This document shows, one piece after another, positions 3,310 through 11,725 of a stretch of DNA of 64,000 bases. A model generated the notes under the pieces. It did not search any database, was not told the origin of the DNA, and saw nothing but the letters and a program-made list of their open reading frames with translations. Origin of the DNA: Streptomyces triticagri (GTDB lineage Bacteria > Actinomycetota > Actinomycetes > Streptomycetales > Streptomycetaceae); NCBI RefSeq assembly GCF_003429565.1, contig NZ_QUAK01000025.1:1-64000 (forward strand). The letters run 5' to 3'. Made by a program: the position numbers and the translations under genes. The stretch's first letter is position 1, and each line of letters begins with the position of its first letter.

Positions 3310-5016
3310 TCAGCCCGGCGAAATCTCCGGAGCCCCGAGACGCGCCGCGTCCGCCGTCAGATCGTCGGGCTGCAGCTGCGATTCACGCTCGGCCTCCACC
3401 CGCTTCTCGTAGTGCGCGATCTCCCGCTCGACCTGGTCCTTGTCCCAGTCGAGCACCGGCGCCATCAGCTCGGCGACCTCCCGGGCGCTGCGCGTGCCCC
3501 GGTCGAAGGTCTCGATCGAGATCCTGGTGCGCCGCGTCAGGACGTCGTCCAGGTGCCGGGCGCCCTCGTGCGAGGCCGCGTAGACCACCTCCGCGCGCAG
3601 ATAGTCGTCCGCGCCCGGCAGCGGCTCGGCCAGCGAGGGATCCGCCGCGATCAGCTCGAGCACCTCCTCGGCGAGCGATCCGTACCTGTTCAACAGGTGC
3701 TCGACGCGGACCACATGGAGCCCGGTACGCGCCGCGATACGCGCCCTGGCGTTCCACAGCGCCCGATAGCCCTCGGCACCCACCAGCGGGATGTCCTCGG
3801 TGACACAGTCGGCGACGCGCTGATCGAGTCCGTGCACCGCCTCGTCCACCGCGTCCTTCGCCATCACCCGGTACGTCGTGTACTTGCCGCCCGCCACGAC
3901 CACCAAACCCGGCACCGGATGGGCCACCGTGTGCTCCCGGGACAGCTTGCTGGTGGCGTCCGACTCACCGGCGAGCAGCGGGCGCAGGCCCGCATAGACC
4001 CCCTGCACGTCGTCCCGGGTGAGCGGCACCGCGAGCACCGAATTGACGTGCTCCAGAAGGTAGTCGATGTCCGCGCTGGACGCGGCCGGGTGTGCCTTGT
4101 CGAGGTCCCAGTCCGTGTCGGTGGTCCCGATGATCCAGTGCCTGCCCCACGGGATGACGAAGAGCACGCTCTTCTCGGTACGCAGGATCAGACCCGTCGT
4201 CGAGTTGATCCGGTCCTTCGGTACGACCAGGTGGATGCCCTTGGACGATCGGACGTGGAACTGCCCCCGCTCCCCGACCATCGCCTGGGTGTCATCGGTC
4301 CACACCCCCGTCGCGTTCACGACCTGGCGGGCCCTGATCTCGTACTCACCACCGCCCTCGAGGTCCTGGACCCGGGCGCCGACCACCCGCTCGCCCTCGC
4401 GCAGAAAGCCCGTCACCCGCGCGCGGTTGGCCACCTTCGCCCCGTACGCCGCGGCCGTGCGCACCAGGGTGGCGACATAGCGGGCGTCGTCCATCTGGGC
4501 GTCGTAGTACTGCAGGGCGCCGACCAGTGCGTCCTTCTGCAGGCAGGGCGCGACCCGCAGGGCGTGACGGCGCGACAGATGCCGGTGCATCGGCAGACCC
4601 CGGCCGTGGCCGCGGGACATCGACATCGTGTCGTAGAGCGCGACGCCCGATCCCGCGTAGAGCCGCTCCCAGCCCTTGCCCTTCAGCGGATAGAGGAACG
4701 GCACCGGCTTCACCAGATGCGGGGCGATGCGCTCCAGGAGCAGCCCGCGCTCCTTGAGGGCCTCGCGCACCAGCGCGAAGTCGAGCATCTCCAGATACCG
4801 CAGCCCGCCGTGGATCAGCTTGCTCGACCGGCTGGAGGTGCCGGACGCCCAGTCCCTCGCCTCGACCAGGCCGGTGGACAGGCCGCGGGTCACCGCATCG
4901 AGCGCGGTGCCCGCGCCGACCACTCCGGCGCCGACCACCAGCACGTCCAGTTCCCGCTCGGCCAGGCCGGCGAGTGCTTCGGCGCGCTCTGCAGGGCCCA
5001 GTGTCGCTGTCCTCAC
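3310..5016 (-). CDS. glpD: Glycerol-3-phosphate dehydrogenase (FAD-dependent)
   Basis: The 568-residue protein oxidises glycerol 3-phosphate to dihydroxyacetone phosphate and passes electrons to the quinone pool at the membrane. The N-terminal FAD-binding Rossmann motif VLVVGAGVVGAG (about 25-36) and the family motif SSKLIHGGLRYLE (about 64-76) are present. The C-terminal part matches the usual GlpD cap domain, and the length is typical. The gene is leftward and separated by 284 bp from the divergent dehydrogenase-like gene at 5301. That gap carries two DnaA boxes and short direct repeats. No GlpR-type operator was recognised. Confidence 0.93.
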   Translation of the reverse strand: MRTATLGPAERAEALAGLAERELDVLVVGAGVVGAGTALDAVTRGLSTGLVEARDWASGTSSRSSKLIHGGLRYLEMLDFALVREALKERGLLLERIAPHLVKPVPFLYPLKGKGWERLYAGSGVALYDTMSMSRGHGRGLPMHRHLSRRHALRVAPCLQKDALVGALQYYDAQMDDARYVATLVRTAAAYGAKVANRARVTGFLREGERVVGARVQDLEGGGEYEIRARQVVNATGVWTDDTQAMVGERGQFHVRSSKGIHLVVPKDRINSTTGLILRTEKSVLFVIPWGRHWIIGTTDTDWDLDKAHPAASSADIDYLLEHVNSVLAVPLTRDDVQGVYAGLRPLLAGESDATSKLSREHTVAHPVPGLVVVAGGKYTTYRVMAKDAVDEAVHGLDQRVADCVTEDIPLVGAEGYRALWNARARIAARTGLHVVRVEHLLNRYGSLAEEVLELIAADPSLAEPLPGADDYLRAEVVYAASHEGARHLDDVLTRRTRISIETFDRGTRSAREVAELMAPVLDWDKDQVEREIAHYEKRVEAERESQLQPDDLTADAARLGAPEISPG

Positions 5017-5033
5017 GGCTGCCTCCCGTTGTG

Positions 5034-5091
5034 ATTCGGGTGTGCTCGGTTGTCATTCGGGTGCGCTCGGTCGATTCTGGGTGTGCTCGGG
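5034..5091. repeat. Three imperfect ~20-bp direct repeats
   Basis: The unit ATTCGGGTGTGCTCGGT occurs at 5034-5050, again with one change at 5055-5071, and in a looser form at 5074-5091. The array lies just upstream of the glpD start. It could bind a regulator of glpD or be a slippage product. Confidence 0.5.
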
Positions 5092-5156
5092 CTCACGTCA
5101 CCCATGCCCCGATTCTGTCCGCGTGCACGGACATCGGCCACCTCCACCCCTCAGCC

Positions 5157-5165
5157 TGTGGACAA
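5157..5165 (-). promoter_or_regulatory. DnaA box (Streptomyces consensus)
   Basis: TGTGGACAA on the plus strand is the exact complement of TTGTCCACA, the preferred Streptomyces DnaA box. It lies in the divergent gap between glpD and the dehydrogenase-like gene, facing a second perfect box at 5242-5250. Confidence 0.5.
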
Positions 5166-5241
5166 CACACGGTGAACTACGGCCGCACAATGCCGGAAAT
5201 CGGTCATATTTACTCCTAACCTGACATTGCGCTCGTCCACC

Positions 5242-5250
5242 TTGTCCACA
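5242..5250 (+). promoter_or_regulatory. DnaA box (Streptomyces consensus)
   Basis: The sequence TTGTCCACA is a perfect box 50 bp before the start of the gene at 5301. It is inverted relative to the box at 5157-5165, with about 76 bp between them. A weaker similar site (CTCGTCCAC) lies directly upstream. Confidence 0.5.
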
Positions 5251-5300
5251 GGACTTGCGCACTCCTCCCGCTCCGGCTACAGGGAAGGACGGCTCACTCC

Positions 5301-6560
5301 ATGCCCGCAGATCTCGCCGTCATCGGACTCGGTCATCTCGGCCTGCCACTGGCCCAGGCCGCCGTGGCGGCCGGCATCGACACCCTCGCCTACGACCCGC
5401 GGCACACCGCCGACCTCGCCGCCGGACGGCTGCCCGCGGACGAGGGCGCCCTGACCGCCGCCGACCTGCGCCGCATGCTCGCGAACGGCTTCCGCCCCAC
5501 CACGAACGCCGCCGAACTGGGCCGCGTCCGCACCGCCGTGATCTGCGCCCCGAGCCCGCTCGGCCCGGACCGCTCCCCCGACCTCTCCCACGTCACCGAG
5601 GCCGCCCGCGCCCTCGCCGCCCGGCTGCGCCCGCACACCACCGTGATCCTCGAATCGCCGGTACCGCCCGGCACCACCGAGGACCTGCTGCGCCCCCTCC
5701 TGGAGAAGGGCTCCGGGCTGCGTGCCGGACGCGACTTCCACCTCGCGTACTCCCCCGGCCGCCTCGACCCGGGCAGCCGTACGCACCACCACACCAACAC
5801 CCCGAAGGTCATCGGCGGCATCACCCCGGCCTGCACGGAATCCGCCGCCGCCTTCTACGGCCGGCTCTCCGACAAGGTGGTACGCGCGCGTGGACCACGA
5901 GAAGCGGAGACCGTACAGCTCCTGGAAACCAACTACCGGCACGTCAACATCGCCCTGGTCAACGAAATGGCCGTGCTCTGCCACGACTTGGGCGTCGACC
6001 TGTGGGACGTGATCCGCTGCGCCGAGACCAAGCCCTTCGGCTTCCAGGCCTTCCGCCCCGGCCCCGGAGTGGGCGGCCACGGCGTCCCGCTCGACCCCAC
6101 CTACCTGCCCCACCCCACCCGCACCCCGGGCCATCCGCTGCGCATGGTCGGCCTGGCGCAGGAGATCAACGACCGCATGCCGAGCTACGTCATCCAGCGC
6201 GCCGCCACCCTGCTCAACGAGCACGGCAAGTCCGCCCGGGCCGCCCGCGTACTGCTCCTCGGCGTCACCTACAAGCCCGACCTCGCCTGCCAGGAGGGCG
6301 CCCCCGCACACGAGATCGCCACCCGCCTGATGGATCTCGGCGCCGCGATCAGCTACCACGACCCGTACGTCCCGCACTGGCGCGTACTCGGCCGCCCCGT
6401 CCCCCGCGCCGACTCCCTCTACGAGGCCGCGGCCGAGGCCGACCTGACGATCCTCCTGCAGTCCCACCGCACCTACGACCTGCAGGGCCTCGCGGTGAAG
6501 GCCCAGCTCCTCCTGGACACCCGCGGCGCCACCCCCGTCGGCGCCGCCCACCGACTCTGA
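5301..6560 (+). CDS. Nucleotide-sugar dehydrogenase-like protein lacking catalytic residues
   Basis: The 419-residue protein has the three-domain layout of UDP-glucose/UDP-HexNAc 6-dehydrogenases: an N-terminal NAD Rossmann motif (GLGHLGLPLA, 9-18), a central helical domain (NIALVNEMA) and a C-terminal UDP-binding half (GVTYKPDL). It is closest in style to the WbpA/WecC branch. Most residues of the two-step oxidation are missing. The nucleophilic Cys of GGHC is Gly (GVGGHG, Gly261). The catalytic Lys and Asn of KLLEN are Gln206 and Thr210. The SPE glutamate is Gly153, and the EST threonine is Pro120. Asp265 is kept. The gene is complete and in frame, with no sign of decay, so it may bind a nucleotide sugar or have a regulatory role. 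Its dehydrogenase activity is doubtful. It is convergent with guaB3. Confidence 0.8.
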   Translation: MPADLAVIGLGHLGLPLAQAAVAAGIDTLAYDPRHTADLAAGRLPADEGALTAADLRRMLANGFRPTTNAAELGRVRTAVICAPSPLGPDRSPDLSHVTEAARALAARLRPHTTVILESPVPPGTTEDLLRPLLEKGSGLRAGRDFHLAYSPGRLDPGSRTHHHTNTPKVIGGITPACTESAAAFYGRLSDKVVRARGPREAETVQLLETNYRHVNIALVNEMAVLCHDLGVDLWDVIRCAETKPFGFQAFRPGPGVGGHGVPLDPTYLPHPTRTPGHPLRMVGLAQEINDRMPSYVIQRAATLLNEHGKSARAARVLLLGVTYKPDLACQEGAPAHEIATRLMDLGAAISYHDPYVPHWRVLGRPVPRADSLYEAAAEADLTILLQSHRTYDLQGLAVKAQLLLDTRGATPVGAAHRL

Positions 6561-6583
6561 GGCGTACCGGAGCCGTACACACG

Positions 6584-6627
6584 ACGGCAGGGGCCGCACC
6601 GCGACGAAGCGGTACGGCCCCTGCCGT
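6584..6627. terminator. Bidirectional hairpin between convergent genes
   Basis: Arms ACGGCAGGGGCCG (6584-6596) and CGGCCCCTGCCGT (6615-6627) pair perfectly over 13 bp, with further pairing inside the loop. It sits between the ends of the dehydrogenase-like gene and guaB3. There is no U-run, as is common in Streptomyces. Confidence 0.8.
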
Positions 6628-6654
6628 GTGCCGGGAACGCGCCCGGCGGAAGGC

Positions 6655-7779
6655 TCAGCGGCTGTGCTGCGAGTCGGCCACCGTGACCTCGACCCGCTGG
6701 AACTCCTTGAGTTCGCTGTATCCGGTGGTCGCCATCGAACGACGCAGCGCACCGAAGAAGTTCATCGACCCGTCCGGAGTGTGCGAGGGACCGGTGAGGA
6801 TCTCCTCGGTGCTGCCGACGGTGCCCAGGTGCACCTTCTTGCCGCGCGGCACGTCCTCGTGGACGGCCTCCATGCCCCAGTGGTGGCCCTGCCCGGGCGC
6901 GTCCGTGGCACGGGCGAGCGGGGAGCCCATCATCACCGAGTCGGCGCCGCAGGCGATCGCCTTCGGCAGGTCGCCGGACCAGCCCACGCCGCCGTCGGCG
7001 ATGACGTGCACATAGCGGCCGCCCGACTCGTCCATGTAGTCGCGCCGGGCGGCGGCCACATCGGCCACGGCCGTCGCCATCGGGACCTGGATGCCCAGGA
7101 CGTTGCGCGTGGTGTGCGCGGCGCCGCCGCCGAAGCCGACGAGCACACCGGCCGCGCCGGTCCGCATCAGGTGCAGCGCCGCGGTGTACGTGGCGCAGCC
7201 ACCGACGATGACTGGGACGTCCAGCTCGTAGATGAACTGCTTGAGGTTCAGCGGCTCGGCCGCGCCCGAGACGTGCTCGGCGGAGACCGTGGTGCCGCGG
7301 ATGACGAAGATGTCGACGCCCGCGTCCACGACGGCCTTGGAGAACTGGGCGGTGCGCTGCGGCGAGAGCGCGGCCGCGGTGACCACGCCCGAGTCACGCA
7401 CCTCCTTGATGCGCTGCCCGATCAGCTCCTCCTGGATGGGCGCCTCGTAGATCTCCTGCAGCCGGCGGTTCGCGGTCTCCGGGTCGAGCTCCGCGATCTC
7501 GTCGAGCAGCGGCTGCGGGTCCTCGTACCGGGTCCACAAGCCCTCGAGGTTGAGCACGCCGAGGCCGCCGAGCTCGCCGATCCGGATGGCGGTCGCCGGG
7601 GAGACCACCGAGTCCATCGGGGCCGCCAGGAAGGGCAGTTCGAAACGGTAGGCGTCGATCTGCCAGGCGATCGAGACCTCCTTCGGGTCCCGCGTGCGCC
7701 GGCTGGGGACGATGGCGATGTCGTCGAAGGCGTACGCCCTGCGGCCGCGCTTGCCGCGCCCGATCTCGATCTCAGTCAC
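6655..7779 (-). CDS. guaB3: GuaB3-family IMP dehydrogenase-related protein
   Basis: This 374-residue TIM-barrel protein is related to IMP dehydrogenase but lacks the CBS pair inserted in GuaB. It keeps barrel and phosphate-binding features such as LAAPMDSVVSP, the IADGGVGWSGD strand and the late MMGSPLA loop. In the catalytic loop, where GuaB has GPGSICTTR, this protein reads GGGAAHTTR, so the nucleophilic cysteine is replaced by His222. It lies just downstream of guaB on the same strand, behind a strong hairpin. The family is conserved in actinobacteria; its reaction there is not settled. A role in purine nucleotide balance is inferred from family and position. Confidence 0.88.
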   Translation of the reverse strand: MTEIEIGRGKRGRRAYAFDDIAIVPSRRTRDPKEVSIAWQIDAYRFELPFLAAPMDSVVSPATAIRIGELGGLGVLNLEGLWTRYEDPQPLLDEIAELDPETANRRLQEIYEAPIQEELIGQRIKEVRDSGVVTAAALSPQRTAQFSKAVVDAGVDIFVIRGTTVSAEHVSGAAEPLNLKQFIYELDVPVIVGGCATYTAALHLMRTGAAGVLVGFGGGAAHTTRNVLGIQVPMATAVADVAAARRDYMDESGGRYVHVIADGGVGWSGDLPKAIACGADSVMMGSPLARATDAPGQGHHWGMEAVHEDVPRGKKVHLGTVGSTEEILTGPSHTPDGSMNFFGALRRSMATTGYSELKEFQRVEVTVADSQHSR

Positions 7780-7891: not shown

Positions 7892-10227
<2,336 letters not shown>

Positions 10228-10405
10228 CTCCTGCGCCCTCCCCTCCCGCTCGGCCGAATCGTCCCCGAGGAACTCCACACCTCAAGGATGCGGCATCTCG
10301 CGGGAAACAACATAAGCCGCTGCACGGAACAGCTCGCAGCGGCATCGGCCACCCCGCCCGCACGGCGGCGGGCGGGGACACTCGCACCCCCGCGGACAGG
10401 CACCT

Positions 10406-11017
10406 TCAGCGCACCAGACCCCACCGGAAGCCGAGCGCGACCGCGTGCGCACGGTCCGATGCGCCGAGCTTCTTGAACAGCCGGCGCGCATGCGTCTTGA
10501 CGGTGTCCTCGGAGAGGAAGAGCTCGCGCCCGATCTCCGCGTTCGACCGGCCGTGGCTCATGCCCTCGAGCACCTGGATCTCGCGCGCGGTGAGCGTGGG
10601 AGCGGCGCCCATCTCGGCGGAGCGGAGCCGGCGCGGGGCGAGCCGCCACGTCGGGTCGGCGAGCGCCTGCGTCACGGTCGCCCGCAGCTCGGCACGCGAG
10701 GCGTCCTTGTGCAGATAGCCGCGGGCACCGGCGGCGACCGCGAGCGCGACGCCGTCCAGATCCTCGGCGACCGTGAGCATGATGATCCGCGCGCCGGGGT
10801 CGGCCGACAGGAGCCGGCGCACCGTCTCCACGCCCCCGAGTCCGGGCATGCGTACGTCCATCAGAATCAGGTCCGAGCGGTCGGCGCCCCAGCGGCGGAG
10901 GACTTCCTCGCCGTTGGCCGCTGTCGTCACGCGCTCGACGCCGGGCACGGTCGCGACCGCGCGGCGGAGCGCCTCTCGGGCGAGCGGGGAGTCGTCGCAG
11001 ACGAGGACGGAAGTCAT
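10406..11017 (-). CDS. bldM: BldM, atypical response regulator of development
   Basis: The 203-residue protein has an N-terminal receiver domain (acidic pair Asp8-Asp9, Asp54 in LILMDVRMPG, Thr82, Lys104) and a C-terminal LuxR/FixJ helix-turn-helix (about 135-200, with LTAREIQVLEGMSHGRSNAEIGRELFLSEDTVKTH as its core, quoted here in part). The length and the divergent whiD neighbour match BldM of S. coelicolor. BldM controls early and late sporulation genes as a homodimer or with WhiI, and is thought to work without classical phosphorylation. No histidine kinase gene is nearby. A sigma-BldN-type promoter lies upstream at 11153-11180. Confidence 0.93.
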   Translation of the reverse strand: MTSVLVCDDSPLAREALRRAVATVPGVERVTTAANGEEVLRRWGADRSDLILMDVRMPGLGGVETVRRLLSADPGARIIMLTVAEDLDGVALAVAAGARGYLHKDASRAELRATVTQALADPTWRLAPRRLRSAEMGAAPTLTAREIQVLEGMSHGRSNAEIGRELFLSEDTVKTHARRLFKKLGASDRAHAVALGFRWGLVR

Positions 11018-11152
11018 GATTGGCGTCCTCCGCGGCTCTCACAGCTGCTGCGCGTCACCTTGAGCCTCCAGGCTGGGTACGAATCGTCACCTGTGCGGTT
11101 GACGCTCTCGGACATCTGCCCGAGCGCTTGGGTTTTCAACCGCCTCGCACTC

Positions 11153-11180
11153 TCAACGATGGTCACCCGAAAGGGTTACG
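11153..11180 (-). promoter_or_regulatory. Sigma-BldN-type promoter of bldM
   Basis: On the minus strand CGTAAC (11175-11180) and CGTTGA (11153-11158) are spaced by 16 bp, matching the reported sigma-BldN consensus at bldM. It lies about 135 bp upstream of the bldM start. The rest of the 390-bp bldM-whiD gap holds an AT-rich stretch and the inverted repeat at 11335. Confidence 0.75.
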
Positions 11181-11334
11181 GGTGGGGGCGCCCCCTTCGG
11201 CACTCTACGTAAGGGCGTGAATACACCAGAGAGTCCGCAGGTCATCGCGACGCCGCCGAGCAGTGTGCCCCATTCAGGCTGGATTTCTTCCCTTTTAGTG
11301 GTGTCTGAGGCTAGATTCGCAATGAGTCATATTT

Positions 11335-11357
11335 ACATCTCCTACGACAGTAGATGT
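11335..11357. promoter_or_regulatory. Inverted repeat upstream of whiD
   Basis: ACATCT (11335-11340) and AGATGT (11352-11357) form a perfect 6-bp inverted repeat. It encloses a second nested one, CTAC-GACA-GTAG. It lies about 50 bp before whiD in an AT-rich stretch and could be an operator or a leader hairpin. Confidence 0.4.
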
Positions 11358-11407
11358 ACCGTCGTGGGCACCGTAACCGCCTCAGAACGGCTGCAAGGGG
11401 ACACGCA

Positions 11408-11725
11408 ATGGCAGACTTCTCCCGCCTTCCCGGACCGAACGCTGATCTGTGGGACTGGCAGCTCCTGGCCGCGTGCCGAGGAGTCGACAGCTCGCTGTTC
11501 TTCCACCCGGAGGGCGAGCGGGGAGCGGCACGAAGCGCCCGTGAGAACTCGGCCAAAGAGGTCTGCATGAGGTGCCCGGTGCGCGCCGAGTGCGCCGCCC
11601 ACGCCTTGGCGGTGCGCGAGCCGTACGGGGTGTGGGGCGGCCTGACCGAGGACGAGCGCGAGGAGCTGATGGGCCGGGCGCGCAACCGGCTTGTGACCGC
11701 CGCGACCACGGCAGCACGCTCCTGA
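11408..11725 (+). CDS. whiD: WhiD, WhiB-like iron-sulfur regulator
   Basis: The 105-residue protein has the four cysteines of the WhiB-like family (Cys23, Cys53, Cys56, Cys62) that hold a [4Fe-4S] cluster, followed by the GVWGGL turn and a basic C-terminal tail for DNA contact. WhiD acts late in sporulation, probably with the principal sigma factor. Divergence from bldM is the S. coelicolor arrangement. The ATG at 11408 fits the start of WhiD, with AAGGGGA upstream; a longer frame begins at 11354 but has no recognisable extra domain. Confidence 0.92.
   Translation: MADFSRLPGPNADLWDWQLLAACRGVDSSLFFHPEGERGAARSARENSAKEVCMRCPVRAECAAHALAVREPYGVWGGLTEDEREELMGRARNRLVTAATTAARS

Follow-up and report, generated by a model that had tools for sequence, protein, structure and literature searches.

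Introduction

What can a protein with the complete fold of a nucleotide-sugar dehydrogenase be doing once catalytic residues of that family have been replaced? The question is raised by a gene (product P0001) lying between glpD and guaB3 in a 64,000-nucleotide stretch of the Streptomyces triticagri genome (contig NZ_QUAK01000025.1, positions 1 to 64,000 of the forward strand), the whole of which is referred to here as the window. Pseudoenzymes are known as a kind, and P0001 resembles the general case set out in excerpts of PMC5106787 and PMC10211241, in which a fold is kept under selection and the catalytic set is lost. No match in the library searched joined 'pseudoenzyme' with 'UDP-glucose dehydrogenase' or 'nucleotide sugar dehydrogenase', and the matches listed for pseudoenzymes and for the family, represented by excerpts, contain no report of this case; a pseudoenzyme clade of the nucleotide-sugar dehydrogenase family appears undescribed under those words in the literature searched. 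The orthologue in S. coelicolor is, we presume, SCO4773. Within the literature searched, the papers on SCO4771-4774 offer nothing on the pseudo-dehydrogenase gene and do not mention SCO4773; SCO4772 stands as a transposase in the excerpted text of PMC3897704.

We compared the gene, its product and its surroundings across Streptomyces and other genera. The best explanation, which we hold to be moderately probable from these comparisons, is that P0001 is a conserved pseudoenzyme that would act as a non-catalytic UDP-sugar-binding dimer, in the role of a sensor or scaffold.

Results

An intact gene encoding a complete fold

The preliminary description of the locus, made from the letters of the window, had called the frame intact and its codon use normal, and both statements hold. 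The gene is open from ATG to stop (5301-6560; 419 codons for amino acids), GGGAAGGA precedes it, and its GC3 is 0.928, set against 0.912 in glpD and 0.955 in guaB3. A profile search matches P0001 to PF03721, PF00984 and PF03720, and the score against TIGR03026 (nucleotide sugar dehydrogenase) is 330 bits for a cut-off of 190. The AF2 model has a mean pLDDT of 91.5, falling below 50 only at residues 272-277, after the lost cysteine. Its best structural match is 4r16 (Z 42.3, rmsd 2.2, 395 residues), and other UDP-sugar dehydrogenases are matched along the entire length in the same search, to which ligands are invisible. With N-terminal Rossmann, central helical and C-terminal UDP-binding domains, P0001 belongs by fold to the NDP-SDH superfamily.

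Replacement of catalytic and NAD-binding residues

Five substitutions had been proposed, namely Pro120, Gly153, Gln206, Thr210 and Gly261 for Thr118, Glu141, Lys204, Asn208 and Cys260, with the late Asp265 remaining. Translation and alignment with P. horikoshii UDP-ManNAc dehydrogenase, Cap5O, CalS8 and actinobacterial relatives confirm all five, and Asp265 aligns with SpUGDH Asp264. Two further replacements lie beyond that list, His12 at Tyr10 and Glu332 at Arg327 (Table 1). Chance misalignment of the motifs is ruled out, since the residues flanking them are retained.

According to excerpts of PMC4794789, the source of all residue roles and residue lists used here, active NDP-sugar 6-dehydrogenases have 18 family-invariant residues, including Thr118, Glu141, Lys204, Asn208, Cys260 and Asp264; Tyr10 serves in the catalysis of thioester hydrolysis and Arg327 forms a salt bridge to the NAD pyrophosphate. 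The window protein keeps 12 of the 18, and does not carry the set of an active dehydrogenase. It is thus like UDP-glucose 6-dehydrogenase (SpUGDH 1dli, human UGDH and Ugd, P0005) in its superfamily fold and in these 12 residues, but differs in that the other six, together with Tyr10 and Arg327, are replaced, and in an identity of about 16-28%.

Table 1. Features of the pseudo-dehydrogenase locus, in window coordinates (roles from excerpts of PMC4794789)
Feature	Position	Strand	Basis
Conserved promoter-like element GTCATATNTNNNCNTARNCT(nACAT), upstream of gene	5203..5227	+	Upstream-region comparison
Pseudo-dehydrogenase gene (P0001, 419 aa, ATG to stop)	5301..6560	+	Translation, Pfam, TIGR03026, AF2
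Codon 12, His for SpUGDH Tyr10 (thioester hydrolysis)	5334..5336	+	Alignment; role PMC4794789
Residues 32-50, past strand 2; hypervariable, deletions in several orthologues	5394..5450	+	dN/dS 0.52
Codon 120, Pro for Thr118	5658..5660	+	Alignment
Codon 153, Gly for Glu141	5757..5759	+	Alignment
Codon 154, Arg retained (Cap5O Arg152, sugar site)	5760..5762	+	55/56; role PMC4794789
Codon 206, Gln for Lys204	5916..5918	+	Alignment
Codon 210, Thr for Asn208 (ENT to ETN)	5928..5930	+	Alignment
Codon 213, Arg retained (Cap5O Arg211, UDP-sugar site)	5937..5939	+	55/56; role PMC4794789
Codon 261, Gly for catalytic Cys260	6081..6083	+	Alignment
Residues 262-280, loop past lost cysteine, with kept Asp265	6084..6140	+	Hypervariable, deletions; dN/dS 0.47; pLDDT <50 at 272-277
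Codon 325, Lys retained (SpUGDH Lys320, UDP diphosphate)	6273..6275	+	51/56; role PMC4794789
Codon 332, Glu for Arg327 (NAD pyrophosphate salt bridge)	6294..6296	+	Alignment; role PMC4794789
Residues 377-419, C-terminal tail	6429..6557	+	Entropy 0.39 vs 1.81 in full-set relatives; dN/dS 0.096

Distribution of the gene

A match at E <= 1e-60 is present in all 246 Streptomyces genomes searched. The 18 weakest were rechecked, and in each there is an orthologue whose identity is at least about 60%, in some cases as a fragment at a contig end; in the remaining genomes the best E-value is 2e-192 or lower, the best full-set paralogue seen standing at 1e-148. The family sample covers 150 genomes from 17 genera. 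Eight of the 16 genera other than Streptomyces (g6, g7, g8, g9, g12, g13, g16 and g17) have copies, at 68-80% identity, and none was seen in g2, g3, g4, g5, g10, g11, g14 and g15. One g7 genome (G318; single contig, 99% complete) has no copy above 58% identity, and the frame is broken, by real decay or sequencing error, in the Streptomyces genomes G173 (L167/L180), G223 (L168) and G238 (L166); the gene is therefore not indispensable. In G009 (C2:4327975-4338539), about 8.5 kb separates guaB3 from a copy matching residues 1-306 only, which would suit an insertion at that place.

A loss common to the clade

In a tree computed from the alignment without its catalytic columns (quick method, SH-aLRT as the sole support), a single clade with SH-aLRT 100 unites the 56 representatives, among them that of the window. 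These 56 rows, at less than 90% identity, are the non-redundant set from 175 clade loci that overlap in part (one species possibly twice, G173 twice). Outside the clade, 35 of 36 rows carry the full Thr-Glu-Lys-Asn-Cys-Asp set, L206 being the exception; an orthologue with the full set, which would have contradicted the preliminary description, was found at none of the 175 loci, and Glu141 at none either, so the loss is not a matter of chance. The division follows identity: all homologues at about 60% or more are without Glu141, and those at 58% or less carry ST...SPER...K..EN...GGHC, again except L206, with Glu to Gln. L206, at 52% identity, has independently changed Glu141 to Gln and Tyr10 to His, and retains Thr, Lys, Asn, Cys and Arg327.

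Among the 175 fully covered loci, 70 retain none of the five sites, 87 one, 17 two and a single locus four; Cys260 is kept in three. Tyr10 is present in 0/56 of the clade and 35/36 outside, Arg327 in 1/56 and 36/36, a pattern that again departs from that of active dehydrogenases. Counts of the 18 invariant residues run from 11 to 15 in the clade, apart from one row (L184) with 17, and from 17 to 18 in the comparison rows, six of the 18 having been used to pick these. (The 33 full-set comparison rows were chosen by all six catalytic letters, so that 33/33 holds there by construction and 35/36 is the free count; this group excludes L002 and the long-branch L178, and both groups exclude L206.)

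Losses among the representatives differ in depth: Glu141 and Tyr10 are gone from all 56, Arg327 and Cys260 from 55, Asn208 from 53, Thr118 from 42 and Lys204 from 25. Such a gradient suggests that Glu141 and Tyr10 went first and that the rest decayed stepwise. Basal L184 has lost Glu141 alone of the five, together with Tyr10 and Arg327, and basal L188 has lost Glu141 and Tyr10 and kept Arg327; in L185 the motif reads ENN, as against ENT in relatives and ETN in most of the clade. The genomes of the two basal genera, g9 and g12 (two in one genus, one in the other), yielded no intermediate with Glu141.

On these replacements P0001 is very probably devoid of dehydrogenase activity. A residual dehydrogenase, able to carry out either or both of the oxidations at a low rate or by means of substitute residues, could call on the kept GxGxxG, Asp264 and fold, on Lys204 in 31 of the 56 representatives and on the 17 invariant residues of L184, for which basal kind of member inactivity is least certain. 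The near-universal losses of Glu141, Tyr10, Arg327, Cys260 and Asn208 speak against it, as does the additional lack of Lys204 and Thr118 in the window protein, and we regard it as very improbable.

Selection on the protein and on its old chemistry

The comparison took in 76 loci and the 2,810 pairs among them in which each of the three genes has dS of 0.1-0.9. Median dN/dS (Nei-Gojobori with Jukes-Cantor correction, a rough measure for high-GC DNA) is 0.23 for the pseudo-dehydrogenase gene, 0.098 for glpD and 0.105 for guaB3. The protein is maintained, at about twice the dN/dS of its enzyme neighbours, and most of its old chemistry is not. Sequencing error or a recent pseudogene is ruled out by this value together with the open frame in most orthologues. 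Regional estimates (2,843 pairs) are 0.108 for residues 191-260, the presumed dimer core, 0.147 for 281-331 and 0.096 for 377-419; they are 0.48 for seven chemistry sites, a set chosen after the data had been seen, 0.52 for residues 32-50, which would form the adenosine side of the NAD site, and 0.47 for 262-280.

The loss had been thought to be itself selected. Positions 120, 153, 206 and 261, the columns of Thr118, Glu141, Lys204 and Cys260, are among the top 12-16% most variable of the clade, which does not support that view and looks like relaxed constraint following loss; position 210, the Asn208 column, is excepted, with Thr in 49/56.

Catalytic residues have been lost across orthologues and the protein is under purifying selection, as in a pseudoenzyme, and a non-catalytic role is accordingly the best reading of the shared loss. 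A sensor and a new enzyme had both been suggested at the outset; the non-catalytic half of that suggestion stands, and the other is disfavoured. A new enzyme would perform some other, possibly NAD-independent, nucleotide-sugar reaction by way of Asp265, His260, Thr210, Asn211, Glu242 and His12. Four of these are well kept in the clade (Glu242 in 56/56, Asn211 in 53, Asp265 in 52, Thr210 as above), and Glu242, Asn211 and Thr210 differ from the full-set relatives; but there is free variation at most of the former catalytic positions, as the joint value for the seven sites indicates, and the adjoining loop 262-280 bears deletions unusual for a working active site, so that we consider a new activity improbable.

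Retention of residues of the UDP-sugar pocket

The 127 columns conserved in full-set relatives are kept by the clade at 82% on average. For the 13 residues of NAD binding and catalysis (list after PMC4794789) the figure is 50% (P 0.0007, 20,000 random draws), and for nine UDP-sugar residues it is 95%, an excess over other conserved columns that is suggestive only (P 0.09). Lys320, which holds the UDP diphosphate, is kept in 51 of 56 and SpUGDH Gly257 in 55; of the Cap5O residues, Arg152, Arg211, Pro155 and Glu117 are each kept in 55, Val254 in 53 and His257 in 49. The Cap5O mutant R152F/R211L is described as unable to oxidise UDP-ManNAc (PMC4794789, excerpts). From these contacts, UDP-sugar binding by P0001 is rather probable. 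Most rows keep the GxGxxG glycines (G7 in 56, G9 in 50, G12 in 55 of 56) and Thr83 (48), and NAD may therefore still be bound; the proposed general base Asp264 is kept in 52/56, and the position of SpUGDH Asp29, counted as the residue after position 31 owing to a two-residue gap, is D in 43/56 of the clade against 32/33 full-set rows.

The six Cap5O residues, represented in the window protein by E118, R154, P157, R213, V257 and H260, are those of the UDP-ManNAc dehydrogenase group, in agreement with an ancestry of that type. P0001 is therefore like the WecC/Cap5O-type UDP-N-acetyl-D-mannosamine dehydrogenases in these residues, in its fold (4r16; 3ojl, Z 39.2) and in its three Pfam domains, and unlike them in lacking Tyr10, Thr118, Glu141, Lys204, Asn208, Cys260 and Arg327 and in that no UDP-GlcNAc 2-epimerase was found in its genome. 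A search for PF02350, the profile of that epimerase, gave no match in the window's genome (control positive in 11/14), which does not point to a working UDP-ManNAc pathway, and the substrate presumed for the ancestor may not be produced in this organism. Among ten loci listed outside the clade, six were scanned (7 ORFs), and four have a glycosyltransferase nearby, one of these with a UDP-GlcNAc 2-epimerase.

The main rival to a sugar-binding protein is a pure protein scaffold that binds neither NAD nor UDP-sugar, its pocket residues being kept for the stability of fold or dimer and its function residing in the C-terminal tail and dimer surface. The strongest clade-specific conservation does fall at residues 301-320 and 377-419 and not in the pocket, and the kept Glu201, Asn219, Asn287 and Pro140 are described as structural (PMC4794789, excerpts). 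The near-complete retention of the UDP-sugar contacts Arg152, Arg211, Lys320 and Gly257 weighs against this alternative, which we judge unlikely.

Neighbourhood

The position beside glpD and guaB3 had been taken to suit a metabolic sensor. One or both of these genes stand in the expected place at 176 of 179 clade loci (window included), some cut by contig ends. Many of the 179 are limited by the length of sequence around the gene: 73 have all four neighbours in order, 52 glpD and guaB3, 27 glpD alone, 19 glpD, guaB3 and guaB, and eight other combinations, among them no neighbour (1), a kinase only (1) and guaB3 on the opposite side (L154). Neither glpD nor guaB3 occurs near the 40 loci outside the clade, within flanks of about 1.5-2 kb. 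The gene runs towards guaB3 and away from glpD and is transcribed against both neighbours. In 12 sister-genus genomes without the gene, glpD follows guaB3 in six (G246, G247, G248, G249, G254 and G283), about 1.1 kb separating the pair in G246; a kinase gene takes that place after guaB3 in five (G255, G258, G268, G270 and G278), and G259 has neither. The 1.5 kb flanks of these 12 loci hold no pseudo-dehydrogenase match at 1e-4. Because glpD and guaB3 adjoin in genomes that lack the gene, and because transcription is opposed, we reject the neighbourhood as functional evidence, and the argument for a sensor from position is not borne out.

By guaB, at 9562-11725 of the window, lie sigma-factor-like, response-regulator-like and small WhiB-like genes, presumably those named ShbA, BldM and WhiB family.

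A partner has also been considered elsewhere in the genome. P0001 might join Ugd, the active UDP-glucose dehydrogenase, in a hetero-oligomer as its regulatory subunit. Ugd, a full-set protein, is the sole other family member found in the window's genome with P0001 as query, and has a match at E <= 1e-80 in 242/242 Streptomyces genomes. The same match is found in 20/20 genomes of other genera, with and without the pseudo-dehydrogenase gene, including all 12 gene-less sister genomes checked, so Ugd does not need the pseudo-dehydrogenase; the two proteins are moreover just 28% identical and their genes lie on different contigs. Such a subunit seems to us distinctly improbable, more so than a new enzyme.

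A conserved upstream element

A promoter-like core of 20 nt, about 97 nt before the ATG, is exact in 140 of 175 upstream regions, the 26 sequences from which it was derived (window included) being among those counted. The 24-nt form of the element has a single site in the genome at up to three mismatches, and hence was of no use as a regulon marker. At the 12 loci without the gene the best matches have 4-6 mismatches; gene-bearing G253 of the basal genus g9 has five, where the element is not recognisable, and G256 two. The element thus accompanies the gene in Streptomyces and in genera close to it, and not at the base of the clade.

Across 177 upstream regions, WhiG, BldN, HrdB-type and DasR patterns were found in none, SigR in three and SigE in 22 on one strand and 24 on the other; the short patterns of BldD, WhiA and Crp were too frequent for meaning. 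A sigma-70 scan gave no hit, and Rfam cmscan of 4900-6800 gave no hits above gathering score. Terminator-like matches in 5000-6700 lie at 5192-5204 and 5036-5049 (+) and 5970-5987 (-), shuffles giving 0.2; the first of these overlaps the promoter-like element at its start.

Discussion

The history that we propose would begin with an ancestor of UDP-N-acetylmannosamine dehydrogenase type, which either arrived between glpD and guaB3 in some of the Streptomycetaceae or survived only there. Glu141 and Tyr10, absent from every representative, would have been lost first and Arg327, kept only in L188, almost as early; Cys260 and Asn208 would have followed, and Thr118 and Lys204 lineage by lineage. 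The fold appears to have been kept, and with it the central helix, through which relatives dimerise, and those residues to which UDP-sugar binding is ascribed, with the C-terminal domain becoming more conserved. P0001 would then most likely still bind a UDP-sugar, perhaps a UDP-HexNAc, without oxidising it; it is presumably a dimer, and the state of the ligand might be passed to a partner through the C-terminal domain. That it serves as a sensor or scaffold with a protein partner has, by our estimate, about an even chance. The pure scaffold remains the main rival to a sugar-binding pseudoenzyme; we give lower odds to a new enzyme, to a Ugd subunit and to residual activity.

A more specific and tentative proposal, which we think rather unlikely as a whole, is that the dead 6-dehydrogenase has become a core UDP-sugar receptor of Streptomyces. 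It would sense the pool of an envelope precursor such as UDP-GlcNAc through Arg154, Arg213 and Lys325, without NAD, and its C-terminal tail would act on the control of growth or development.

Annotation by family models would name this gene a nucleotide-sugar dehydrogenase, despite its presence in every Streptomyces genome searched. If P0001 is a non-catalytic UDP-sugar binder, metabolic models of Streptomyces built from annotation contain a false reaction, and a conserved regulator has been overlooked in a much-studied genus. A family for which the literature searched describes no pseudoenzymes would at the same time gain a clear stepwise case, its residues decaying at different depths.
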